A stretch of DNA of 64,000 nt from Puniceicoccaceae bacterium. GTDB lineage: Bacteria; Verrucomicrobiota; Verrucomicrobiia; Opitutales; JAFGAQ01. The notes beneath the pieces were generated by a model. It had not been told where the DNA came from. It was given only the letters and a program-made list of their open reading frames with translations, and did not search any database. Location: positions 1,030,160-1,094,159 of the forward strand of contig JANQOQ010000006.1 of the NCBI GenBank assembly GCA_028285755.1. Reading direction: 5' to 3'. Below are positions 19,465 through 34,566 of the stretch, in pieces. Numbering within the stretch: the first letter of the stretch is position 1; each line of letters begins with the position of its first letter. Position numbers and translations under genes: made by a program.

Positions 19465-20265
19465 ATGTCTGCTACCGTATTTACAATAGCCAACCAAAAA
19501 GGGGGAGTGGGAAAAACCACCACCGCTATTAATTTGGGTTCAGCCCTCGCTAATCAATACATAAATACACTTATCGTGGATATGGACCCTCAGGCCAACT
19601 CCACCAGCGGCCTGGGCTTTAGCAAGAAGGAGGGAGCCAGTATTTACGCACCGCTAATGGGAGAGGGCAATGCCCAGGAAAAGATACTCCCTACCCGCAA
19701 TGACCACCTGTTCCTCATACCTGCTGAAGTGGACCTTGCAGCCGTTGAGACCGAGCTCATCGAACGCCCCAACTACCTGCTGCAGCTCAAGGCTTGTCTG
19801 GACTCGATCATGAACTCCTTTCGCTTCGATGCGATCATCATGGACTGTCCGCCATCACTCGGCATTATATCGATGAATGGCTTAGCCGCAGCGGATTATC
19901 TATTGATCGCTCTTCAATGCGAATACCTCGCGCTGGAAGGACTGGGGCAGATACTGAGTGTGACCGAGCAAATCCGGGAATCGGGGGTAAACCCCAGACT
20001 GCAACTCGGTGGTATTATCATGACTATGTTTGATGTGCGCACCCGCCTCTCCGAGCAAGTGGTAAACGAGGTTAAAACTCACTTTCCCGATAAGATTTTT
20101 AATTCAGTAATACCCCGTAGTATCCGACTCAGTGAAGCCCCCAGCTTTGGTAAATCCATTTTTGAGTATGAGCCCAATTCCCCGGGAGCCCATGCCTACA
20201 AAAAACTCGCGGATGAAGTGATCCAACGGTTCGAGTTGGATAAGAAAAACCTCATGCTCAGTTGA
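19465..20265 (+). CDS. ParA/Soj-family chromosome partitioning ATPase
   Basis: A 266-aa deviant Walker-A ATPase. QKGGVGKTTTAINLG (deviant P-loop with the signature lysine) is followed by VDMDPQANSTSGLG (A'), FDAIIMDCPPSLG (Walker B) and LGGIIMTMFDVRTRLS. It is closest to chromosomal Soj/ParA. The next gene is rnc, starting within its stop codon, and not parB, so it is an orphan here; parB and parS may lie elsewhere. Confidence 0.9.
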   Translation: MSATVFTIANQKGGVGKTTTAINLGSALANQYINTLIVDMDPQANSTSGLGFSKKEGASIYAPLMGEGNAQEKILPTRNDHLFLIPAEVDLAAVETELIERPNYLLQLKACLDSIMNSFRFDAIIMDCPPSLGIISMNGLAAADYLLIALQCEYLALEGLGQILSVTEQIRESGVNPRLQLGGIIMTMFDVRTRLSEQVVNEVKTHFPDKIFNSVIPRSIRLSEAPSFGKSIFEYEPNSPGAHAYKKLADEVIQRFELDKKNLMLS

Positions 20266-20993
20266 TGGATAAGCGAAAGTTAAAGACTCTACAAAAAAAC
20301 ATCGGGTATCGTTTCAAAAACAAAGACCTGCTCATCCAGGCATTGACTCACCCATCCTACCTACAAGGTACTAACGAAAACCAAAAGCACAATCAAAGGC
20401 TGGAATTCCTCGGAGATGCGGTACTTGGCATGATTGTGGCCGATGAGCTATTTAAGATTTTTCCGGACCAAAGAGAAGGCTTTTTGACCAAAGCCCGTGC
20501 ATACATTTGCCACGGCAAGGGACTTACAAAGCTCGCCAAACAAATGGAGCTGGACGACTACCTGCTCCTCGGCAAAGGAGAGCAAAAGGCAAAGACCAAA
20601 TCCCGAAGCCAAATGCTCGGAGATAGTTTGGAAGCCATCATAGGCGCGGTCTACATGGACGGTGGCTACAAGCCGGTGCATAAGCTGGTACTCAACTGGC
20701 TGAGTAACGAAATCCAAAACCTGGATATAGATACCGTTTCAATCAACTATAAGGGCGAACTTCAGGAATGGTCACAGTCCCACTTTGCCGATAACCTGTT
20801 CAGCTATTCGCTACTGGAAGAATCCGGACCAGACCACGCAAAGCAATTCACGGTGGCAGTCTTACTCAAAGATCAGGAAATCGCCCGGGCTACCGGCTAC
20901 TCAAAAAAAGAAGCGGAGGCACTCGCCGCGAAACAAACACTGCGGGAACTCAAGAAAAAAAGCGTCAAAGAGCTTAGCACCCTGGCAAACTGA
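20265..20993 (+). CDS. rnc: Ribonuclease III
   Basis: 242 aa from the ATG at 20265, whose A is the last base of the parA stop (TGATG). It is a dsRNA endonuclease for rRNA and mRNA maturation. The RNase III domain shows NQRLEFLGDAVLGM (signature) and MLGDSLEAIIGAVYMDGG with the catalytic Asp and Glu. A dsRBD follows at about residues 165-235 (NYKGELQEWSQSHF, KKEAEALAAKQTL). The overlap with parA implies coupled translation. Confidence 0.95.
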   Translation: MDKRKLKTLQKNIGYRFKNKDLLIQALTHPSYLQGTNENQKHNQRLEFLGDAVLGMIVADELFKIFPDQREGFLTKARAYICHGKGLTKLAKQMELDDYLLLGKGEQKAKTKSRSQMLGDSLEAIIGAVYMDGGYKPVHKLVLNWLSNEIQNLDIDTVSINYKGELQEWSQSHFADNLFSYSLLEESGPDHAKQFTVAVLLKDQEIARATGYSKKEAEALAAKQTLRELKKKSVKELSTLAN

Positions 20994-21009
20994 ATTTTAA
21001 CGAAGCAGT

Positions 21010-22716
21010 ATGCCCAGACTCCCCAGTATCCTCCTTTTGCTATTAGTTAGCATAGTTCAATATGCACACGCACTGGAAATCCCCAAGAGCGCTGAAAAAC
21101 CCAACGTGCTGTTTATCACCATTGATGATTTGAACGATTGGGTCAGCATTCTCGATGGCCATCCGCAAGCGCTCACACCCAACTTTGAAAGGCTCGCAAA
21201 AAGGGGCATTAACTTTACGAATGCCCATTGTAATGTGCCCGTATGCTCTCCATCGCGGACGAGCTTTATGACGGGTGTTGCCCCTCACAATTCCTGGGTG
21301 CTCACCAATGGGGATCGGGTATTTGACCTCCACGGCAAATATTTAACCCTCCCCGAGCTCTTTACTCAAAACGGATATCATGTCATGGGTGCGGGCAAAC
21401 TCTTTCATGGAAGCGGTAATGATTACCGCGCATACTTTGGCATATATGGTCCTGGATCAGGCAACCAGGGTGGGCCATTTACCCAGGATGAACTCAACAC
21501 TCAAAACCAGAATCCTACCAATATTGTGAACCGGGGTCCCGGCAAACTCCAAGCAGTACTCCCGATGAACGGCATGCCGGATGTCCGCAGGACCGAACGC
21601 CATCGCAATAACTCTTTCGACTGGGGCCCCGTCAATGTCAGCACCGATGAGATGCCGGATGGTCAGGTCAATGCGTGGGCGATTGAGCAACTCAAGGAAA
21701 CTCACGATAAGCCCTTCTTTCTCGGCGTCGGTTACTACCGACCCCATCAACCCATGTTCGTGCCCGAAAAGTATTTTGAGCCCTTTCCTCTCGATTCCAT
21801 TCAATTGCCTGACGTATTGGAGGAAGACCTGGATGATCTTTCCGAATATGCCCAAAAACTCGCATTATACCCACTAACATCGGGCAGCCATGATGGAGTC
21901 GTCGAATACAATCAGTGGCATGCGGCAGTGCAGGGATATTTGGCGAGTGTCTATTTTGTTGATACCCTGCTCGGCAATCTGCTGGACGCCCTGGATCAGT
22001 CAAAATATGCAGACAATACACTCATCGTGCTCTTCTCAGACCATGGATATCATACAGGCGAAAAAGAGCATTGGGGCAAAATGACAGGTTGGCAGGAATC
22101 CACCCGAGTACCCATGATCGTTGCCTTACCCAAGTCTTGTAAAAAAAGTGAATTTACCGGTAAACGGGTGGATGCCCCTGTAAGCCTCGTGGATGTGTAT
22201 CCGACATTGGTTGACATTATTAATTTAACACCCCCGAAACACGACTTAGATGGCGAGAATCTCTTTGAAGTCATAAAGAATCCTGAATCCAGAGTAGCAA
22301 TTACATCCGTTGCCCGAGGGAGTTATTCGATACGCTCGCAAGATCACCGATACATTCTCTACTTTGATGGCACTGAGGAACTTTATGATAAAAAGACAGA
22401 TCCTGAGGAATGGCATAATCTCGCAACAGATCCTGATTATCAGCGTGTTAAAAAAAACCTTCGCAAACACATTCCGGCGGATGATCACGTGACCCATTAT
22501 GTGCGAGCCGGAAAATGGAAGGCGGTCATCTATAATAACAGGGAAGCAGAGCTTTACGAAATTGTCCCCGGGACAGGCGGCGGCGGCGGAATCGGCGAGA
22601 CCAGCAGCGTAGCAGAGAATCATCCTGGCATACTCACAAAAATAGTCGATTATCTTGATAAAAATCCAACCCGTACTAAGCGGGTTATTCTGGATATACC
22701 CGATCTTGAAGGTTGA
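21010..22716 (+). CDS. Exported sulfatase (S1 family, iduronate-2-sulfatase-like)
   Basis: A 568-aa protein with signal peptide (LPSILLLLLVSIVQYAHAL). The sulfatase signature is CSPSR at residues 79-83, where Cys79 would be converted to formylglycine by a separate enzyme not seen here. NVLFITIDDLNDW supplies the metal-binding Asp pair, and FSDHGYHTGEKEHWGK the second metal site and a catalytic His. The overall layout matches iduronate-2-sulfatase-like S1 members. It would remove sulfate esters from polysaccharides in the periplasm, as is common in marine Verrucomicrobia. It stands alone, with no PUL genes around. Confidence 0.92.
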   Translation: MPRLPSILLLLLVSIVQYAHALEIPKSAEKPNVLFITIDDLNDWVSILDGHPQALTPNFERLAKRGINFTNAHCNVPVCSPSRTSFMTGVAPHNSWVLTNGDRVFDLHGKYLTLPELFTQNGYHVMGAGKLFHGSGNDYRAYFGIYGPGSGNQGGPFTQDELNTQNQNPTNIVNRGPGKLQAVLPMNGMPDVRRTERHRNNSFDWGPVNVSTDEMPDGQVNAWAIEQLKETHDKPFFLGVGYYRPHQPMFVPEKYFEPFPLDSIQLPDVLEEDLDDLSEYAQKLALYPLTSGSHDGVVEYNQWHAAVQGYLASVYFVDTLLGNLLDALDQSKYADNTLIVLFSDHGYHTGEKEHWGKMTGWQESTRVPMIVALPKSCKKSEFTGKRVDAPVSLVDVYPTLVDIINLTPPKHDLDGENLFEVIKNPESRVAITSVARGSYSIRSQDHRYILYFDGTEELYDKKTDPEEWHNLATDPDYQRVKKNLRKHIPADDHVTHYVRAGKWKAVIYNNREAELYEIVPGTGGGGGIGETSSVAENHPGILTKIVDYLDKNPTRTKRVILDIPDLEG

Positions 22717-22776
22717 TATTTTCTGAATGTCAGGCTCAAGTAAGGAATCTCGATTTTTCGGGAATCCTGAAATTGA

Positions 22777-25700
22777 ATGAAGTCGATTGAGATTCCCCCT
22801 AGTTTTGCACGCTCATGGGTTACCGGTGTAATCGATGAGGCGTTACCCTACGTACTGATCGATCAAATCCACCAAAGCGAGGCACAAGTCACACTGGTTC
22901 TTTGCGCAAGCTATCGCGAAATCCAGCACCATCTCAACCGGATCGAAGCAGTCATGGATTACCCGAGCATGCAGTCGCTGGCGGTACCGGTTCATGAGAT
23001 CCCATTGCTCAGTGATTATCAAAAATTAGAATCCCAATACCAGTACAAACAATTTGATCTTCTGAGGACCCTTGCCGACATCCGGAAATCCCTTAACGAA
23101 CAGAAAAAAATTTGCCTGTTTACCATACCCCCAGCCCTTTTCCAGGAACTACCCGCTCCCGATCATATCGAACAAAATTCAATTAACCTGAAGACGCATG
23201 CTGAGCAACCGTTTGTGGAACTAAAGGCTCTATTGGCGGAGAAACTCGGCTACAGCTATGAAGCAGTTTGCGAAACCCCCGGGCAGTTTGCCTCCCGGGG
23301 AGGTTTGCTGGATATCTATCCGAGCAATGCGCTCGCACCCTACCGGGTTGATTTCTTTGGCGACACCATCGATTCAATCAAGCGTTACGACCCCACCACA
23401 CAACTCACTGAGGACCCTGTTGAACAGATACAGATATTACCCGCAAATGTAAGTGACACCCAAAATCCAGAATCGGCTCAACTCATTGATCACATAGCCC
23501 AGGAGTGCCAGTGGATATTGGTGCAGCCGAATACGCTAGCGGTAGAATACCCAAATATCTTCACCCGGCCGGAACGCATGGATAAGGTATCGAACGAATC
23601 GAATATTTCAGAAATATGGAATAATCGAAGCTATAATGACACATGGGTCGCCTTTACGGATATCTCACAAAAGCCCGATACAATGGGTCTCGAAGAGCCT
23701 ACACAAAGCATCTACGCGAATGCACTGGAGATCCATAAGCATGATTGGGTAACGCTTAAAAATACTGAAATCGGCGAGTCGACGCTCATGCCAAATGAAA
23801 AGAAGGTCATTGAATATCTCGCCGATCGCAGCACCAAAGGCTACCAATGTCGAATAGGCCTACACAAGGTGGAGGAACAAAAGCGCCTGCAGCGATTAGT
23901 CCAGAAGGACTACCCCACCTTCCAGCCGGAAATCGCCGCATCTGCGCTCCCGAGAGGGGTCGTTTTCCATGCTTCGAAGGGAAACTACTACCCCGAAATT
24001 TTTAGGAGCAAGGATTCCCGCGGCATAATCTGGGCGGCAGATGTAGACCTGCACCCGACCTTACGGCTACGGCTGGGTCGTAAAAATCAGCGCAAGCTTC
24101 CACAAATATCCCAGGTGGACTCCATGCTGGACTTCACCGAACTGGCAGACGGGGATTATCTGGTGCACCAACTCTACGGCATTTGTATTTTCAGAGGCGT
24201 TAACCACTTGGATTTTGAGACCAGCCGGGAATCCATCTCGCTGGAATTCAGTGACGAAGCCATGATCCATGTGCCGCTAAACGAGTCCCACTTGCTCACT
24301 CGCTATGTAGGTCTCAGTAAACGAGCCCCCAAACTCGGAAAAATTGGAACGAATCAATGGGAAAAGGATCGTAAGAACGCCGAAAAAGCAACACTCGACC
24401 TCGCAGCAGAGCTACTCGCCCTGCAGGCAAAACGAGAGTCTCATGAAGGCTTTGCCTACCCGCCAGATAACGCCTGGCAGAAGCAATTTGAGCAGGCTTT
24501 CCCCTATCAGGAAACCCCAGACCAACTCACAGCTATCGAGAATAGTAAGGAAGATCTGGAAAGTCCAAAACCCATGGACCGGCTGATCTGCGGAGACGTA
24601 GGATTTGGCAAGACGGAGGTCGCCCTACGGGCAGCCATGAAGGTGCTGAGCAATGACAAACAGGTTGCCCTGCTAGTGCCAACTACTGTGCTTTGCCAGC
24701 AGCACTACCTGACATTCCGGGATCGCATGGTGGAATTCCCGATCCAGGTGGAAATGCTGAGTCGCTTTAAAACACAGGCTGAGCAGTCAAAAATCGTTCA
24801 AAGTATAAAGAGCGGCAACACGGATATCGTGGTCGCCACACAACGCATCCTCAGCGAGGACATTGCCTTCAACGATCTTGGCCTGATTATCGTAGATGAG
24901 GAGCACCGCTTTGGCGTTAAGCAGAAAGAGCGCCTCAAGGTAATCGCAGAAAACGTAGATGTGCTGTCATTGAGCGCTACACCCATCCCGCGCACTCTCT
25001 ACCTGGCCCTGTCAGGCGCCCGGGATCTCAGCGTGATCGAAACACCTCCCCAGAATCGTCTACCGATAGAGACCATAGTCAAAGATTACAGCCCCGAGCT
25101 GGTCGACAGTGCCATCCAGGCTGAAATCAATCGGGGTGGTCAGGTATTTTACCTGCACAACCGGGTGCAGACCATCCACAAAGTCGCTGCGATGATCAAT
25201 GATCGCAATAAGAACATCCGCGTCGCCGTGGGTCACGGTCAGATGAACGAGCACGATCTCGAAAAAATCATGACCGACTTTGTAGCCGGACACTACGATG
25301 TGCTTGTATGTACAACAATCATCGAGTCCGGCCTCGATATTCCAAATTGTAATACCCTCATTATTGAAGGAGCTGATAAATTCGGCCTCGCCCAGCTTTA
25401 CCAGATCCGGGGGAGAGTCGGCCGATTCAACAAACAAGCCTATGCTTATCTGCTGCTGCACGGCAAAAAACCAGTTGCCAGCACTGCCCGCAAGCGACTT
25501 TCTGCAATCAAGCAATACAACGAGCTCGGAGCGGGTTACCGGATTGCCATGCGCGACCTCGAGCTACGGGGCGCGGGTAATATCCTCGGTGCCGCCCAAA
25601 GCGGGCATATCGCAGGCGTGGGGTTTGAGCTCTATTGCAGACTGCTGAAACAAAGCGTGGAGCGCCTTAAGAAAGGTATTGGCATCGAGATCACACGTGC

Positions 25701-26184
25701 GGCCATTAATCTCGATTTTGTGCTCGTCGGTGAACCCTCCAATAAAAGTGGGAGATCTCAGGAAACGAAAATCGGCTATGCGGCGCTTAAAAACAGTGAG
25801 ATCAACGAAGCATGGCCCGCCCCGATCCACGCCTATATCCCTGTAAGTTATATTCAGGAAACCAAATTACGCATCGATTTTTACCGCAAGTTAGCCTCTG
25901 CAGCTACCGTTGACGAAGTGAAGTCCCTGCGACTGGAACTCAAGGATCGGTTCGGCAAAATACCGGACAACGTAGAGGCACTCATCCGCATCAGCGCGGT
26001 TCGCTGCCTGGCCGAGAGCAAAAAAATAACCCTTGTGGAGTGCACTTCGGGGAAGTTAGTCATGCGCATCGGTAACCCTCCCAATCATCAATTTATCAAA
26101 GAAGGCAATCGATTTCCTCGCTTGACGCCTGATAAACCTCTTCTACTATTGAACAATTTGATCAAATATATGTCAAAAATGTGA
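22777..26184 (+). CDS. mfd: Transcription-repair coupling factor
   Basis: An 1135-aa protein that removes stalled RNA polymerase and recruits UvrA. The N-terminal UvrB-like region ([29 protein letters not shown]) is followed by the CarD-like RNA polymerase interaction domain ([18 protein letters not shown], about residue 457) and the SF2 translocase with Walker [10 protein letters not shown] (about 604), DEEH box [25 protein letters not shown] and [21 protein letters not shown]. The TRCF domain ends it. Length is normal. The gene begins 60 bases after the sulfatase and ends 20 bases before the SurA-like gene. Confidence 0.97.
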
Positions 26185-26204
26185 CATACACACACCATAA
26201 AACC

Positions 26205-27206
26205 ATGCAAAAAATAACGACTTTATTCGCAACCTCATTGTCCCTGTTGCTCGCATTACAGAGCCTGGTTGCCCAGGAGGAGCCGGCTACAGTATGGGAA
26301 GATCCATTTGCCAACGGGATTGCCGCAAATGTCGAGGGCACGATCATTACATTTTCAGAAATCAGACGCGAGCTACGCCCGATTATCCCACAAATCATGC
26401 GTGAATCGCGAACACGCAATGAACTGTCTGAAAACCTGAATAGTTTCGCCAAGGATATTCTACAGAATATTATCGATCGCAAACTGATCGTAAAGGAATA
26501 CCACGAACAGGAAAAATTTAAAATACCCCAATCCTACATCGAAAATGATTTTGATGACCGCCTGATCAGCGACTTTGACAATGACCGGTCGCGCCTGCTG
26601 GAATATCTCCAAACCCAGGGTATGACTATTCGCGAATATCGCAGGGAGCTTCAGGAAAATCTGATCGTAAGTGTGATGCGCTCCCAGATGATGCGCAAAG
26701 TGGCAATGATCAGCCCTGAAAAAATCGAAGATTACTACATTGAAAATAAGATTCAGTTCTTCCAGGAAGAGCAGGTGCATCTTCGCCAAATCGTATTAAG
26801 GGCCCGCAGTGATGAGCAAATCGGCCTTACCACAGAAAGAGCCCGCAATATCATCTATGAGCTGCAGCAGGGAGCTCGCTTCGCCGAAATGGCAGCCGAA
26901 TACAGTGAAGACACCATGGCAGAACGTGGGGGAGACTGGGGCTGGATCGAGCGTTCCGATATCCGCGCAGAACTCGCCAATGTTGCCTTTCGTTTAGACA
27001 AAAAAGACTACACACGTGAGCCCATTGTCATGGGCAATCATGTATTCATCCTTTATGTGGAAGACCGCAAAGATGAGGGCATACAACCCCTCGATGAAGT
27101 GCGTGAAGTCATTGAAAACCGCATTCGTTCCTCACTCTCTCAGGAAGCCCAGCAACGTTGGGTGACCCGTTTGAGGGAAGATGCCTACATCAAGTACTTC
27201 ATCTAA
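26205..27206 (+). CDS. SurA-like periplasmic chaperone/peptidyl-prolyl isomerase
   Basis: 333 aa from the ATG at 26205; a GTG at 26181 within the mfd end is in frame but adds only eight polar residues before the signal peptide (LFATSLSLLLALQSLVAQ). The N-terminal SurA-N chaperone part (NVEGTIITFSEIRREL, IDRKLIVKEYHEQ) is followed by one parvulin domain (HLRQIVLRARSDEQ, GARFAEMAAEYSEDTMAERGGDWGWI, KKDYTREPIVMGNHVFILYVEDR). One parvulin unit instead of SurA's two. It probably escorts outer membrane proteins. Confidence 0.88.
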   Translation: MQKITTLFATSLSLLLALQSLVAQEEPATVWEDPFANGIAANVEGTIITFSEIRRELRPIIPQIMRESRTRNELSENLNSFAKDILQNIIDRKLIVKEYHEQEKFKIPQSYIENDFDDRLISDFDNDRSRLLEYLQTQGMTIREYRRELQENLIVSVMRSQMMRKVAMISPEKIEDYYIENKIQFFQEEQVHLRQIVLRARSDEQIGLTTERARNIIYELQQGARFAEMAAEYSEDTMAERGGDWGWIERSDIRAELANVAFRLDKKDYTREPIVMGNHVFILYVEDRKDEGIQPLDEVREVIENRIRSSLSQEAQQRWVTRLREDAYIKYFI

Positions 27207-27232
27207 TTGAAGTATTTTGAGAGGCAGCCTGA

Positions 27233-28024
27233 GTGATCCAAGCATTTGTCGAAGCTCTGCAGTCCTGGCAGCCCGAATGGGTATGGCTGTTACTGTTGAT
27301 AGCTGCATTTAGCAGCCTGCTACTGATGCTGCGCTTATTTGGCGCATGGGGAGTGACCCTATATATGTGTGTGGTGCTCATTGCTGCAAACCTGCACGTA
27401 TTAAAAGCGGTTAAATTCTCCCTGATGGAAAACCCCGTAGCCCTGGGAACCGTATTATTTGCAACCACATTTCTCAGCACCGATATACTCAACGAATACT
27501 ACGGGCCTAAATACGCGCGGCGTGCCGTATTGCTGGGCTTCACAGGCTTCATATTGTTTACCGGGATGATGCTTCTGGCCCTCGGCTTTCAACCTCTGTC
27601 TGAAAGCTATGCGGATACGGACTGGAGTTGGGCGATCGATTATCACAATCACTTAACCGCTATCTTTACACCCATACCGAGTATACTTTTAGCAGGTTTG
27701 ATCGCCTATATGGTGAGCCAGCTACTGGATATCTGGGTGTATCAGCGTATTCGTGAAAAAACCCAGGGGCGTTTCCGCTGGTTGCGCAATAATGCATCCA
27801 CCTGGATATCCGCTTTTGTAGATAACACCATCTTCAGCCTGCTTGCGTGGTATATACTGGCAGCCAACAAGCTCACTATGGATGTGATCTGGCAGACCTA
27901 TATTATTGGCACTTATTTTCTGCGTATTGGTGTCGCCCTACTCGATACGCCGATATTATACTTGGCTAAATACTGCTTACCGGCTGAAGATAAAGCACTT
28001 AAGCCGAATTCGCCAAGTTCATGA
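27233..28024 (+). CDS. VUT-family queuosine-precursor transporter (YhhQ-like)
   Basis: A 263-aa integral membrane protein with about six helices, starting at GTG 27233. The family marks are the long region LFATTFLSTDILNEYYGPKYARRAV, DNTIFSLLAWYI, and RIREKTQGRFRWLRNNASTWISAFVD. YhhQ proteins take up 7-deazaguanine queuosine precursors, preQ0/preQ1, and queuine in Chlamydia. The stop overlaps the tgt ATG by 4 bases (ATGA), so transporter and tRNA-modifying enzyme are coupled. See the finding on the TGT pocket. Confidence 0.9.
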   Translation: MIQAFVEALQSWQPEWVWLLLLIAAFSSLLLMLRLFGAWGVTLYMCVVLIAANLHVLKAVKFSLMENPVALGTVLFATTFLSTDILNEYYGPKYARRAVLLGFTGFILFTGMMLLALGFQPLSESYADTDWSWAIDYHNHLTAIFTPIPSILLAGLIAYMVSQLLDIWVYQRIREKTQGRFRWLRNNASTWISAFVDNTIFSLLAWYILAANKLTMDVIWQTYIIGTYFLRIGVALLDTPILYLAKYCLPAEDKALKPNSPSS

Positions 28025-29205
28025 ACTTACATCCCGATCTCTATTTTAAGATCACACACACCGCTGGAGATCAACACGCGCGCTCTGGTGTATTGAGCAC
28101 GCCCCATGGTGCAATTGAAACTCCCAATTTCATTTTTTGCGCAACCAAAGCCGCAATCAAAGGCCTGACCATGGATCAAATGCGTGAATGCGGTGCTCAG
28201 ATCGTTCTATCCAATACTTACCATCTGTTCTTGAATCCGGGAGGTGAATTCGTGGAAAGACAAGGAGGTCTCCATCGTATGACCGATTGGCACGGCCCCA
28301 TGCTCACGGATTCCGGCGGCTTTCAGATCTTCAGCCTCGGAAATGGTTGGGTGGCAGATGAGATCAAAGGCAAGCGATCACACAGTACCGAGAAAAAACT
28401 GCTCAAGATCACCGAAGAAGGTGCAGATTTTGTTTCCTACATCGATGGGACACGCCACCAGCTTAGCCCGGAAAAATCGATCGAAACCCAAATTCAGCTC
28501 GGTGCGGACCTGATCGTAGTGCTGGATGAATGCTCCCCTTATAACGTAAGCCGCGAGTATACCGCAAAATCCATGGCGATGAGCCACCGTTGGGAAAAAC
28601 GCAGCTATGAAGAGTATTTGCGCCGCACCGATGGTTCGCAGGGCCTCTATGGCATTGTCCAGGGCGGTGTATATGAGGATTTAAGACGCGAAAGCGCCGA
28701 ATTTGTAAATGAAGTGCCCTTCTTTGGGCAAGCGATCGGAGGCTGCCTCGGAGGCAGTAAAGAGGAAATGTACGAGGTGGTCCATATGGGTGCTCAGCAT
28801 CTGCGCAAGGACCGGCCTACGCACTTATTGGGAATAGGTGGCGTCGAAGACATTTGGAACGGCATCCACGAGGGCATCGATACCTTTGACTGTGTACACC
28901 CTACCCGGCTGGCACGGCATGGAGGAGCACTGATCAGGCCCGTGGAATGGGAGGGCAAAAGCTACATCAACCTGCGTAACGCACGTTTCAAAAACGACGA
29001 CTCACCACTGGATGAACGCTTACCCTGTAAAGCCTCTAGCTATTATTCGCGATCCTACATTCACTACCTGATTAGAGCCGGGGAGATGTTGGGCTATCAG
29101 CTACTCATCCAACACAATGTTTGTTTTATGATGGAGCTTATGAAAACAGTCAGAAATGCCATCCAAACAAACAGTATCGACTCAGAGGTTAAAAATTGGC
29201 TCTAG
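28021..29205 (+). CDS. tgt: tRNA-guanine transglycosylase with altered zinc site
   Basis: A 394-aa enzyme exchanging G34 of GUN-anticodon tRNAs for a queuosine base. Seen: LTDSGGFQIFSL (binding Asp), VLDECSPYN, GIVQGGVYEDLRRES, the nucleophile loop FDCVHPTRLARHG and RNARFKNDDSPLDE. Two features differ from usual bacterial enzymes. The base-pocket segment reads AIGGCLGGSKEE, with Gly where bacterial TGT has Val233 and Ser where it has Glu235. The zinc motif CxCxxC reads LPCKAS, keeping only its middle Cys and the distal His (LLIQHNV). The Gly is the eukaryotic, queuine-accepting type. It overlaps the transporter gene by 4 bases. Confidence 0.92.
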   Translation: MNLHPDLYFKITHTAGDQHARSGVLSTPHGAIETPNFIFCATKAAIKGLTMDQMRECGAQIVLSNTYHLFLNPGGEFVERQGGLHRMTDWHGPMLTDSGGFQIFSLGNGWVADEIKGKRSHSTEKKLLKITEEGADFVSYIDGTRHQLSPEKSIETQIQLGADLIVVLDECSPYNVSREYTAKSMAMSHRWEKRSYEEYLRRTDGSQGLYGIVQGGVYEDLRRESAEFVNEVPFFGQAIGGCLGGSKEEMYEVVHMGAQHLRKDRPTHLLGIGGVEDIWNGIHEGIDTFDCVHPTRLARHGGALIRPVEWEGKSYINLRNARFKNDDSPLDERLPCKASSYYSRSYIHYLIRAGEMLGYQLLIQHNVCFMMELMKTVRNAIQTNSIDSEVKNWL

Positions 29206-29269
29206 TACAATTAAACTTTGCGCTCTCAACGGATACGTGTAGCATTACCTCACCAATCATCTGATCGCT

Positions 29270-29806
29270 TTGTTAGAAAACATAACGCTTACCCCATTTA
29301 CTGAGTTATCTAAGGAAGAGGAGTTACTTGTACTCAAATGGAGGAACCATCCTAAAATCAAGCAATGGATGATCAATCAAAACACCATCTTTATAGAAGA
29401 GCATGGGCAATTTCTGGAGTCGTTAAAAGCTGACCGTACTAAGCAATATTTTCTGACAAAATACGATAACAAGAATATCGGAGTGATCGATTTCTACAAT
29501 ATTGAACCGAACGGTACTTATTGCTATTACGGATACTATCTCAATTTTGAACTGATCGGTTCTGCATACGGATTATTACTCGAGTATCTCGTTATCGAGT
29601 ATGGATTTGATCAACTCAAACGATCAAAACTAATTGCTGAAACAATGCACTCGAATACATCAGCGATAGAGCTCCATAAGCGATTCGGATTTATTGAAAC
29701 CACAACCAATCAGCGCGGTCTAATAGAAGCTTACATTACTCCCGATATATGGTCTCAGCATAAGCCCCATATTGAGCCTCTCATTAAACGGATTTTAGGT
29801 AAATGA
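29270..29806 (+). CDS. GNAT-family N-acetyltransferase, PseH-like
   Basis: A 178-aa protein starting at TTG (29270); an in-frame stop lies 30 bases upstream and no ATG is near. It resembles PseH, which acetylates an amino sugar on the way to pseudaminic acid: LKWRNHPKIKQWM, FIEEHGQFLESL, DNKNIGVIDFYNI, and the acetyl-CoA segment LLLEYLVIEYGFDQL, AIELHKRFGFIET. No pse biosynthesis genes are in the window, so the true substrate may be another amino sugar or a different amine. The stop overlaps the next ATG by 4 bases. AT-rich like its downstream neighbours. Confidence 0.78.
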   Translation: MLENITLTPFTELSKEEELLVLKWRNHPKIKQWMINQNTIFIEEHGQFLESLKADRTKQYFLTKYDNKNIGVIDFYNIEPNGTYCYYGYYLNFELIGSAYGLLLEYLVIEYGFDQLKRSKLIAETMHSNTSAIELHKRFGFIETTTNQRGLIEAYITPDIWSQHKPHIEPLIKRILGK

Positions 29807-31452
29807 AGCAAAGCATCTACATATTATCCAACGTGAATCTGGAAATGCTCCCCACGCTCAAATTACCGGGAAATGTGGAATCACAATTTAATTGGATTCA
29901 TGATGGATTTGAGACGCTGCTCCCTCAAATCCTAAGTGATCAACCCAGATTTTTATCACAAGAAGATGCGATTATATGGATACACTTTGATCCAAATGGA
30001 ATTAAAGGAGAAACTAAAAAGGAGGAACCGCTTCACCAATCACAAACAATTGATAATCAATTGCTAAGTATCATTCATAAACTCAATGACTGGCTATCAA
30101 AACTACCGGATTTACCATTCATTATTTCCGACTCCCTATTCCGGAATCAATCCGCTAGTGTCATCGAGCAAGCAGAATCAATATTAAGAAAACACACCAA
30201 CGCTTTTCAATTTGCATTCTGCAAATGGGTAGCAGCCCATAGTCAGCAATCTAGATTCGATCAGCGGCTCTGGGATATAGCAAAAATTCCGTATTCTCTG
30301 GATTTTCAGAGACTACTGAAGCAGGAGCTGGAAATTGCCGCCTGGAACCAACAAAACAAACCTAAAAAAGTGCTGCTTTTAGACTTTGATCGAACCCTAT
30401 GGCCTGGTACTTTAGATGAAGTAGGTGAATCGAATTCTGCTACGGATCTTTCCACAGAAAATCAAAGCCATTTTGCACATTTCCAACACAAAATCCTGGA
30501 ATTGAAAAACTGCGGAGTATTGCTCGTGCTTGTCTCTAAAAATGAAAAAGTACGCCTCAAATCCTATTTCGATAACAATAACTGGATGTCACTCCAATGG
30601 GAAGACTTCGTATTCCAGTCAGTAAATTGGAACGATAAGTCCATAAATATTCTAGAGCTTGAGAAAGCACTCTCAATAAGTATCGAAAGCATGCTGTTCA
30701 TAGATGATGATGCACGAGAACGTTATGCAGCCCAACAGGCACTACCCAGCCTTACCGTTGTCGATTTTCCAAAAAATTCAGCAGATTTAGGCGAATGGAT
30801 GAGTAACTACATATCACCCATGTTTTTCACGAATGATTCCATCACCGAGGAAGATCTACTACGCAGCCAATCTTACCGGAAACGAGCTCAGCGCGATCAG
30901 CAATCACATCACTTCAGTAACTACGAAGATTTTATAAACTCACTCAGCATTCAGCTAACTCTAGCACCAGCCCGGGATAAACACCATTCACGAATCATAC
31001 AGCTGAGCGAGCGAACCAACCAATTTAATCTTAATGGACAGATCATTGGTATAAACGAGCTTCAAGCCTTAGAAGATAGACCCCGGACATATTCGTGTAT
31101 AGCGCATTACAAGGATCATTTTGCGGATGAAGGAATCATTGGATATCTACGCTTCGAAATCAATGCGGATGATACTCTCACATTCACCCACTACTATTTA
31201 AGCTGCCGTATCCTGGAAAAGCGGGTGGAGCATGCACTATTAGTGGCAGCTACCTCGGAGATCCAACGAATAAATCCAGCTATTGAAAAATTGACGGTAA
31301 ACTTTCATGATACAGGACGCAATCAACGTATTCACGAATTTCTAGATCAAACAGGGTTATTATCGCAAAATACCGGCATTACAGATTTGTTGAAAATACT
31401 CAAAAAGCTGTGTTTGTATGAGTGTAAATATGACTTCGAAGGATATTATTGA
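29803..31452 (+). CDS. FkbH-like HAD-IIIC protein
   Basis: A 549-aa FkbH-like protein. The N-terminal about 185 residues are a divergent SGNH-like region. The HAD core has LLDFDRTLWPG with Asp194 and Asp196 (DxDxT), VLVSKNE, NWNDKSINI (motif III Lys) and LFIDDDARER (motif IV). The C-terminal GNAT-like part shows SERTNQFNLNGQ, DHFADEGIIGYLRFE, YLSCRILEKRVEHALL and FHDTGRNQ. FkbH proteins can dephosphorylate 1,3-bisphosphoglycerate and load glyceryl onto an ACP. An ACP gene overlaps its end by 35 bases, and the upstream acetyltransferase overlaps by 4, so the three are one unit. Confidence 0.9.
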   Translation: MKQSIYILSNVNLEMLPTLKLPGNVESQFNWIHDGFETLLPQILSDQPRFLSQEDAIIWIHFDPNGIKGETKKEEPLHQSQTIDNQLLSIIHKLNDWLSKLPDLPFIISDSLFRNQSASVIEQAESILRKHTNAFQFAFCKWVAAHSQQSRFDQRLWDIAKIPYSLDFQRLLKQELEIAAWNQQNKPKKVLLLDFDRTLWPGTLDEVGESNSATDLSTENQSHFAHFQHKILELKNCGVLLVLVSKNEKVRLKSYFDNNNWMSLQWEDFVFQSVNWNDKSINILELEKALSISIESMLFIDDDARERYAAQQALPSLTVVDFPKNSADLGEWMSNYISPMFFTNDSITEEDLLRSQSYRKRAQRDQQSHHFSNYEDFINSLSIQLTLAPARDKHHSRIIQLSERTNQFNLNGQIIGINELQALEDRPRTYSCIAHYKDHFADEGIIGYLRFEINADDTLTFTHYYLSCRILEKRVEHALLVAATSEIQRINPAIEKLTVNFHDTGRNQRIHEFLDQTGLLSQNTGITDLLKILKKLCLYECKYDFEGYY

Positions 31453-31684
31453 GAAACAGGTCATAAGCACTCTGGAAGTGTTACTTTCGATGGAGAGAGG
31501 ACGTTTAACGGTACATACTCAACGGACAGAGATTGCTGAGTGGGATTCCATTAAGCAGTTGGAGATCATGCTTGAACTTGAAAAGCAATTTTCAGTGCGA
31601 TTCTCCGCTCCTGAAATCACCGAAAATCGTGAAATTCAGCAAATTTTGGAGCTCATCTACAAAAAAACCTCTAAAATTTCGTAA
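31418..31684 (+). CDS. Acyl carrier protein
   Basis: An 88-aa ACP. The phosphopantetheine site is in EWDSIKQLEIMLELEKQF (the DS(I/L) motif, Ser about residue 44). The fold has the usual helices: DIIEKQVISTLEVLL, then a long loop, then helix 2 at the serine and helices 3-4 (APEITENREIQQILELI). The ATG at 31418 lies inside the FkbH gene in another frame; an ATG at 31430 is an alternative. The 35-base overlap implies coupled translation at a fixed ratio with FkbH, its likely loading enzyme. Confidence 0.9.
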   Translation: MSVNMTSKDIIEKQVISTLEVLLSMERGRLTVHTQRTEIAEWDSIKQLEIMLELEKQFSVRFSAPEITENREIQQILELIYKKTSKIS

Positions 31685-31734
31685 AACGGTTACAATAATT
31701 AAGTTAACTCACATGCGGGCGATATAGAAACCGC

Positions 31735-33639
31735 ATGAGCACAAACTATTTTGTAGGCCGTGAGTCTGAACTAAAGCAGCTCGATCAGTCCTTATTTAAT
31801 GGAGCCCCTAAGGCTACCGAGTTAAATTGTGTTCTGATATCCGGTAGGCAAGGCATTGGTAAGACTGAATTGCTCAAACAATTTACTCAAAATTTGGAAC
31901 AAGAGTCCAAGCATACAATCTGGTTTCACCCCGAATCGAATACAGGCTACAACCAACTCCACACCTTTTACAGCGCTGTAGTAAAATCGGCCAAAACAAA
32001 TTATCAGCCTCTGGAATCCTATGTAGAAAAGCTCATTCTCGAAAGTGAGGAATTTAATGTAACTCGTGGAGAAACCGAATCTCCCGAATCCTTCTGGAAA
32101 GGCAAATTTGAAAATTATCTACTACCGGCAGGTGCATCTACGCAGATTCAAGACCTACTCGATGATGTACACTTCATATTTATATTGGACGACTTTGCGA
32201 ACGTACCACGCTCTATTTTAAAGAGTTTCGCTGATTTCATTAAGCATCTAACTGCACATAAAATAGGCAGACAGCAAGTAGGTCTCATCTTAAGTTCCGA
32301 AAGTTACCAATCGGATACCTTAATGGAACTGGATTTAAACGATACTCAAAAATATCACGAAATTAAGCTTGCTCCATTTACGCAGCAGGAGTGTGAGCAA
32401 TTGCTCGATTCTGAAGACTTTGAGCAACACATCATCGATAAAGTTTTCGAACAAACGCTGGGACATCCGGCAGACATCGTAGCATGTATCAATGACCAAA
32501 AGATGAGAAGTGAAAACCAGGAAGCGATTCTCAATCGCGGCAGCAATCTCGTTTCACAATACAGTGATATTGAGAGAAAATGGCTCTACTGGGCAGCAAT
32601 CGCTAAAGTATGCAAAAAGGAAATTATTGGGATATTTGCAGATAACGATGAACAAAATGACTGCCTGAACTGGATCCGCTCAAAGCACCCTACCCTTTTT
32701 GAAAACACGATCGAGGGCTATCGGCTTAACCGGGATTTGCGTAAAGCCGTTATAGCCTACTTGGAACAAAAAGAACCTGAATTCTATATCAGGCTAAAAC
32801 AAAAAATGGATAACTACCAATCAGTGTGTATGATTATTCCCAGTGAAAAGCACCGAAAAGCGCTATCCATATTAATGAGCTTCAATGTCTTTGAGATTAG
32901 CGTTATCAAAAAAGTATTTAATGAGGAGATTTCCCAATCTATTATCAATCTCATTGACGAAAAACCCGACTATTTTCGCAAAAGCAAGAATCTCATTCGC
33001 ATGTCCTCCAATGTTCGCAACGCGATCATTCAATACAATGAGCTTCTCCCCCAAGATCCGACCGTCCCTTATAAATCGAGAATAGCCCACTATTGGGAAC
33101 AAAAGGAAGCCAAGCTTAACCAACAGCTGGTTGATCTTGAAAAAGATATCAAAGAGAGTAGCGAACAAACCAATAAGCTTAATAATTCCATTGTTAATAT
33201 CGAAAAGGAAATATCCCGTATTAAGTCGCTATCGAAAAAAGCCACCCCAATCATCCCAAAGCATACGGCACCCACTCATTACTCTCTGAGTGGAGTCATC
33301 GGGATTGTAACCTTTCAGGTGATCGGCGTCATCCTACTCTATATAGGTATTCTTTATTATGAAGATATTTCACTGACCTATATTGGCCTTGCCGCTATCT
33401 GTATACTCGCGGGATTTATTTTTAGCCCCGGAAAACATGAGCAAAAAGTCAAAGAAGCACTCGAAGTAGGTAACATTTTTGAAAGCGAACAAAAATTTGG
33501 AAAACTCATCCATAATCTGGAAGTAGACCGTAATTCGCTTGTGCACATGCAAAATAAAGAAAATAGTAGCATCCGTAGCCATCAGCAAACGATCCAAAAA
33601 ATACAGGAAGAACTTAAACAACCTTACCTAATGGATTAA
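31735..33639 (+). CDS. Membrane-anchored STAND-like P-loop NTPase, unknown function
   Basis: A 634-aa protein. It opens NYFVGRESELKQLDQSL, like ORC/STAND NTPases, with Walker A GRQGIGKT (37-44) and Walker B FIFILDD (147-153). A helical/winged-helix-like part runs to about 450 (IERKWLYWAAIAKVCKKEIIGIFA). Then come a coiled coil (about 452-502), two hydrophobic helices (about 519-562) and a second coiled coil (about 582-629). No TPR, WD40 or known effector domain is seen. The membrane topology suggests a sensor or scaffold rather than a soluble regulator. It begins 50 bases after the ACP and is followed 9 bases later by an HDOD gene. Confidence 0.75.
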   Translation: MSTNYFVGRESELKQLDQSLFNGAPKATELNCVLISGRQGIGKTELLKQFTQNLEQESKHTIWFHPESNTGYNQLHTFYSAVVKSAKTNYQPLESYVEKLILESEEFNVTRGETESPESFWKGKFENYLLPAGASTQIQDLLDDVHFIFILDDFANVPRSILKSFADFIKHLTAHKIGRQQVGLILSSESYQSDTLMELDLNDTQKYHEIKLAPFTQQECEQLLDSEDFEQHIIDKVFEQTLGHPADIVACINDQKMRSENQEAILNRGSNLVSQYSDIERKWLYWAAIAKVCKKEIIGIFADNDEQNDCLNWIRSKHPTLFENTIEGYRLNRDLRKAVIAYLEQKEPEFYIRLKQKMDNYQSVCMIIPSEKHRKALSILMSFNVFEISVIKKVFNEEISQSIINLIDEKPDYFRKSKNLIRMSSNVRNAIIQYNELLPQDPTVPYKSRIAHYWEQKEAKLNQQLVDLEKDIKESSEQTNKLNNSIVNIEKEISRIKSLSKKATPIIPKHTAPTHYSLSGVIGIVTFQVIGVILLYIGILYYEDISLTYIGLAAICILAGFIFSPGKHEQKVKEALEVGNIFESEQKFGKLIHNLEVDRNSLVHMQNKENSSIRSHQQTIQKIQEELKQPYLMD

Positions 33640-33648
33640 GTCTGCATA

Positions 33649-34566
33649 ATGTCTGTCGATTGCTATAATATGCCTATTGAAGATTCCAAGATTATTCGAG
33701 CGATCGAAGCCAGTCCTAAGCTGGGATCTCTGCGCAGGATCAACCAGACCTTCCAAAATCTGGCCAGCGCAGACGGTGATCTCACGGGGCAAGTCGCTGA
33801 GGTAATCCGGCGAGATCCTTCGCTCACTTCACGGTTATTGAAGATCGTAAATTCTGTCTTCTACGGGTTTGCCACCAAGATCGATAATATCGAAGACGCA
33901 GTTTTCTATCTGGGCACCAAGCAGATTCGCCAAATGGCCATGGCGACTCCTGTCCTTGAAGATATGCAGCAATTTGGAGGTGAAGGCATTAAGCTCGATT
34001 GGACTTTCTTTTGGCAGCAATGCATCGGCTGCGCGATCATGACTCGTGAGATCCTGAGTTTTACAGATCATCCGGCCCATGGAGACTCCGATTACATCTC
34101 AGGTCTGATCTACGGAATCGGCAACATAATCGCATTGTCCGCATTTCCCGAAGAGATGCGCGATATCCTCGTCCAAAGACCACAGACAGAAGAACAATTG
34201 GTTGACCTACAGCAACAGGTGATCGGCTGGGATCACTGCAAAATTGCAGGCCACTACCTCAAACATAACAAAATTTCAGATGATATTAGTATCCCCATCG
34301 CCAAGCAGAATGAGCCGGAGCTCGCAGGTGAAGAACAACACATTCCCACCCTTGCACTCAACTTAGCCAAACGAATGATCGGCCAACTCGATAAACCGGG
34401 TAAAGCGATTCGTGTTATGCCTCCTCCTGCAGATTCGGATTGGGAACAAGCGCCCGAACTCAGGTTTTTGTTTGATCCCGAGTCTACGCGCAGTGCACTT
34501 TCTATCGCATCCCTAAAATATTCATTGAATCAGTTACCTGACATGCTAAAAAGTTTCCTGGATTAG
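33649..34566 (+). CDS. HDOD domain protein
   Basis: A 305-aa signalling protein dominated by one HDOD domain. Typical segments: SPKLGSLRRINQTFQNLAS, VAEVIRRDPSLTSRLLKIVNSVFYG, IEDAVFYLGTKQIRQMAM, and the GLIYGIGNIIAL and WDHCKIAGHYL region near the end. HDOD lacks the catalytic His-Asp of HD hydrolases and usually acts in signal transduction. There is no GGDEF or other output domain here. It lies in the same run as the STAND-like gene (9 bases before) and the GGCT-like gene (7 bases after). Confidence 0.88.
   Translation: MSVDCYNMPIEDSKIIRAIEASPKLGSLRRINQTFQNLASADGDLTGQVAEVIRRDPSLTSRLLKIVNSVFYGFATKIDNIEDAVFYLGTKQIRQMAMATPVLEDMQQFGGEGIKLDWTFFWQQCIGCAIMTREILSFTDHPAHGDSDYISGLIYGIGNIIALSAFPEEMRDILVQRPQTEEQLVDLQQQVIGWDHCKIAGHYLKHNKISDDISIPIAKQNEPELAGEEQHIPTLALNLAKRMIGQLDKPGKAIRVMPPPADSDWEQAPELRFLFDPESTRSALSIASLKYSLNQLPDMLKSFLD

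Follow-up and report, generated by a model that had tools for sequence, protein, structure and literature searches.

A short-loop tRNA-guanine transglycosylase and an overlapping transporter gene in an Opitutales genome: a likely unit for direct queuine salvage

The 64,000-nucleotide stretch of DNA analysed here (hereafter referred to as the window) carries a YhhQ-family transporter gene that overlaps a gene for tRNA-guanine transglycosylase (TGT). The question raised by this pair is which base it serves: queuine, taken up and inserted directly, or the precursor preQ1. An earlier note on this DNA favoured queuine, pointing to a substrate pocket described as eukaryote-like and to a similar pair in Chlamydia. 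The features of the locus are as follows:

27233..28024, + strand: QPTR/YhhQ-family transporter, GTG start, 263 amino acids (TIGR00697, PF02592)
28021..28024, + strand: ATGA common to both reading frames, read from the sequence
28021..29205, + strand: tgt, short-loop tRNA-guanine(34) transglycosylase, ATG start, 394 amino acids (TIGR00430)
28339..28398, + strand: insert of about 18-20 residues, GNGWVADEIKGKRSHSTEKK, near residues 107-126 of the TGT, placed from alignments
28738..28758, + strand: GGCLGGS, the pocket loop (residues 240-246), with one residue fewer than GGLAVGE(G)
29020..29037, + strand: degenerate zinc site LPCKAS, residues 334-339

The four-base overlap of the two genes reported in the earlier note is correct, and both frames lie on the + strand. 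In most other QPTR-tgt pairs, the nearest possible tgt start is at most 30 bases from the QPTR stop. Upstream of the pair are an Mfd gene and a SurA-like gene (named from their sequence), and since two Opitutales families, f1 and f22, preserve the order Mfd-SurA-QPTR-tgt, the pair has a stable neighbourhood. Downstream of tgt, positions 29270-31684 hold a group of surface sugar or lipid genes, encoding a PseH-like acetyltransferase, an FkbH-domain protein and a short acyl-carrier-like ORF. An Rfam scan of positions 20000-34000 returned neither a preQ1 riboswitch nor any other family at the gathering threshold.

The source genome (4.25 Mb in 15 contigs, 97% complete) was searched for the families QueA, QueG, QueH, QueF, QueC and QueD; each search gave matches in control genomes. 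No match to QueA, QueG, QueH, QueF or QueD was found in the source genome, nor any true match to QueC: PF06508 matches once, with 20 bits over part of a 520-residue frame that most likely encodes a GMP synthetase, and this match was rejected. The absence of queA and queG/H, which had been proposed as a check on the queuine reading, is therefore observed, and QueF, QueC and QueD are likewise without a true match. As the Que genes tested are lost, while the transporter and the TGT are kept, import of queuine and its direct insertion are the most likely explanation.

The tgt product is the sole TGT match in the genome, with 404 bits against TIGR00430 (cut-off 306.75), and is 77-80% identical to TGTs of the same family. 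It shares 42% identity over 365 residues with the TGT of Zymomonas mobilis, a preQ1 enzyme, and its AlphaFold2 model (pLDDT 87.7) matches that protein with a Z of 51.8. The catalytic and base-binding residues D97, D169, Q214 and D290 (identified as the Asp of TDSGGFQ, the Asp of DEC, the Gln of QGG and the nucleophile Asp of FDC) are invariant in the alignment. A eukaryotic origin was considered and rejected: phmmer gives 306-310 bits against the Z. mobilis TGT and 222 against QTRT1 chains, and in a tree built without a eukaryotic row the protein is of bacterial type and groups near alphaproteobacterial TGTs. While fold and catalytic residues are thus shared with the Z. mobilis enzyme, the window TGT differs from it in its shorter loop, in the insert, which is missing in Z. 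mobilis and is modelled with low confidence, in the loss of zinc cysteines, and in the absence of a QueA/QueG partner.

The structural zinc site (CxCxxC plus a His) is not intact, as two of the three cysteines are replaced and only His365 is retained along with the third. At least two of the three cysteines are gone in 7/30 short-loop Opitutales TGTs, in 21/71 other short-loop TGTs, and in 56/62 long-loop Opitutales rows (a set that includes the truncated L034), with the His almost always retained. Since most preQ1-type TGTs of the Opitutales have lost the site, it does not serve as a family criterion there. A literature search returned no report of zinc-free TGTs.

The pocket sequence had been read correctly (AIGGCLGGSKEEM, residues 238-250), but its interpretation depends on where a gap is placed. 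Up to the Met, Z. mobilis has 12 letters (GGLAVGEGQDEM) and the window TGT 11 (GGCLGGSKEEM). MAFFT and hhalign both open the gap straight after GG, which aligns Leu243 with Val233 and Gly244 with Gly234; with wild-type Z. mobilis TGT as the target, phmmer opens it after GGC, and with the V233G mutant further downstream. In the AlphaFold2 model the loop lies between a strand (residues 236-239) and a helix (residues 247-258), and the residue occupying the place of Val233 is ambiguous. Because the loop is one residue shorter and the gap moves with the program, the earlier assignment of a Gly to the Val233 position is weak: one of the two alignments gives it, the other puts Leu there and Gly at 234. 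Similarly, the Glu at position 235 is indeed absent, but the Ser said to replace it depends on an ungapped alignment. Glu is found in only 3/101 short-loop TGTs at each of the two candidate 235 positions, and is therefore not retained.

Across these 101 distinct short-loop TGTs the loop reads GG[S/C/T]LG, with the Leu present in 100, the next Gly in all 101, and the following two places variable; such conservation argues that the short loop is not due to chance. The published motif for q-type TGTs is GG[LS][AS]G, which the GGCLG of the window TGT does not literally fit. The counterpart of Cys158 is Cys171, and a Cys is found there in 99/101 short-loop sequences, while eukaryotic TGTs possess a Val at this position (PMC3660597). 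In Z. mobilis, the V233G and C158V/V233G variants were shown to bind queuine, but not to use it as a substrate (Biela et al. 2013, PMC3660597), so that a single Gly is never sufficient evidence, and the side chain of Glu235 supports a peptide flip between guanine and preQ1 (PMC3660597). Direct use of queuine is the presumed likeness to eukaryotic QTRT1/QTRT2. In contrast to these, the window TGT is encoded by a single bacterial-type gene and has a shorter loop, Cys171 instead of the eukaryotic Val, and no Glu235; the description of its pocket as eukaryote-like is not borne out. The proposal that queuine is used directly thus keeps its support from the missing biosynthesis genes, but the pocket argument for it is weaker than had been stated.

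The distribution of the loop among related genomes is more informative. In 103 Opitutales genomes, QueA is absent from all 27 with a short-loop TGT, and present in all 64 others with a TGT (a handful of these 64 were assigned by score, with the loop not read). The Opitutales short-loop TGTs form one clade (99/94), so these 27 genomes do not represent 27 independent events.

The transporter follows the same division. It matches TIGR00697, the queuosine precursor transporter (hereafter QPTR), with 159.5 bits (cut-off 50.95), and PF02592 with 149.9 bits (cut-off 27.2). A QPTR lies immediately 5' of tgt in 49/101 short-loop loci, compared to 0/61 long-loop loci; locus L034, which had seemed to place a QPTR beside a long-loop TGT, is a truncated short-loop gene and was moved to its true group for this count. 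QPTRs linked to tgt group in a single clade (SH-aLRT 99) to which the window QPTR belongs (SH-aLRT 99), and those of QueA-positive genomes stand apart from it. That enzyme and transporter vary together is the strongest sign that the two changed substrate jointly. Neither gene was detected in G004, a genome of the same family, which also fits a two-gene unit. The source genome encodes a second QPTR (L051:4225-4893, G000 C13), which was rejected as the partner of the TGT: it clusters with QPTRs of QueA-positive genomes, and its neighbours are purine-salvage genes (adenosine deaminase-like, HPRT-like and nucleosidase-like), surroundings that suggest another cargo. Small Opitutales genomes (0.8-1.3 Mb; L043-L050 and L059-L067, families f6, f12 and f25-f28) possess a short-loop TGT and no QPTR.

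In a scan of species genomes in which the best 80 loci were kept, those outside the Opitutales belong, by title, almost only to Alphaproteobacteria, among them Ehrlichia, Holosporales, Caedimonas, Paracaedibacteraceae, Micavibrio-like bacteria and marine single-cell genomes. The C. trachomatis TGT is not among these best 80 loci, and no Chlamydia entry was recognised among the PDB matches. As the short-loop clade, within which the Ehrlichia TGT also falls, spans two phyla, gene transfer is likely. In this wider clade, nearly all Alphaproteobacteria by title, QueA is absent in 45/50 genomes. The other five are Rhodospirillaceae-like MAGs, which have QueA and no TGT other than one of the short-loop type; three have QueG and a nearby QPTR, and one also has QueF. 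For this reason the loop alone cannot exclude preQ1, and a short-loop TGT can probably coexist with its use: either a second tgt is missing from these bins, or the short loop works with preQ1. The three queA-linked QPTRs of these exceptions that were read (L179-L181) also fall outside the tgt-linked clade, which fits a transporter that follows the substrate. Four Micavibrio-like short-loop genomes (L120/L129/L134/L157, from G122/G129/G133/G144) have QueF above the cut-off and no QueA.

Taken with the missing pathway genes, these patterns make it likely that the pair is a two-gene unit for direct queuine salvage. The QPTR protein would bring in the free base queuine (q), and the short-loop TGT would exchange it for guanine-34 in tRNAs with a GUN anticodon (Asp, Asn, His, Tyr), so that queuosine-tRNA would be made in one step, with neither QueA nor QueG/H. 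I infer that queuine is the substrate of this TGT, and that the cyclopentenediol of this base fits because the GG[S/C/T]LG loop is shortened.

The Chlamydia precedent invoked earlier agrees with the published account, in which the TGT and QPTR of C. trachomatis use q for direct salvage (PMC11570991). The likeness consists of the same two protein families, the absence of the preQ1-to-Q enzymes, and a presumed one-step insertion of queuine; C. trachomatis is however an obligate intracellular parasite, whereas the window organism has a 4.25-Mb genome and overlapping genes. The C. trachomatis TGT loop presumably resembles GGSLG. The loop of Ehrlichia (Anaplasmataceae), whose TGT belongs to the same short-loop clade, is GGSLG; this genus differs from the window organism in its phylum, its full zinc site, and the lack of a QPTR adjoining tgt in the two loci read, and Ehrlichia is reported to retain tgt only (PMC11570991).

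It is unlikely, but conceivable, that the pair instead imports and inserts preQ1 and that the pathway stops at preQ1-tRNA, with no Q made. Such an endpoint has been proposed for Bartonella henselae, which offers a parallel, as it also possesses a TGT and a QPTR, lacks QueA, QueG and QueH, and prefers preQ1 (PMC11570991), and the short-loop TGT stands alone in the five QueA-positive genomes and beside QueF in the four lacking QueA. The Bartonella TGT, however, keeps an ordinary GGLAVG loop where the window TGT has GGCLGG; both window proteins belong to clades apart, in which nearly every member lacks QueA, and the absence of QueF, QueC and QueD from the genome also speaks against this explanation. 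I regard as rather improbable a dual use, in which the short loop widens the pocket, the TGT takes both preQ1 and queuine, and the choice of base lies with the transporter alone. This would account for the same loop occurring in QueA-positive and QueA-negative genomes that the QPTR clade separates, but q is reported to be the only base used by the C. trachomatis proteins (PMC11570991), and the QueA-positive MAGs may have been binned from more than one organism or be missing a second tgt. Finally, a decaying remnant that no longer yields modified tRNA, as the degenerate zinc site and the failure to detect either gene in G004, a genome of the same family, might suggest, is very improbable in view of the open frames, the intact catalytic residues, the 77-80% identity to same-family TGTs, the conserved operon, and a zinc-site loss that is even commoner in Opitutales preQ1-type TGTs of QueA-bearing genomes.

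Direct queuine salvage by the pair therefore remains the reading I prefer. A broader proposal, which I put forward only tentatively and consider doubtful as a whole, is that the short-loop TGT forms, with the QPTR clade particular to it, a co-inherited salvage cassette across phyla. Its pocket would represent a third architecture, neither the GG[L/V][A/S]VGE of preQ1 enzymes nor the eukaryotic one, taking queuine with no Glu235 and, in some lineages, with no zinc site; in a few lineages it would still work with preQ1 and QueA, and these would be natural intermediates of the specificity switch.

Direct queuine salvage by a TGT and a QPTR is already known, and it is the loop of the window pair that departs from the published motif. 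In published discussion, bacterial salvage of this kind is linked mainly with intracellular pathogens, and a literature search, judged by title, found nothing linking it to Verrucomicrobiota. From its genome size and gene content the source organism is probably free-living. The 4.25-Mb Opitutales genome, together with many environmental Alphaproteobacteria carrying the same pair, suggests that free queuine is a shared community nutrient. The short-loop clade and its QueA-positive exceptions also form a natural series for testing the change from preQ1 to queuine, one residue and one transporter at a time.

Other TGT forms were observed among the genomes compared. A second, longer TGT of about 690-760 amino acids is encoded at L078:1654-3726 and L076:1316-3589 (and, by length, in L072, L074 and L080); these longer proteins (families f13 and f19) possess a C-terminal Methyltransf_30 domain (PF05430, MnmC-like) and a GGLAVGE loop. 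In family f7 (L052-L056), the TGT loop reads GGVVVDF, and the gene adjoins queA within a queuosine gene cluster; this loop possibly reflects a different substrate preference.
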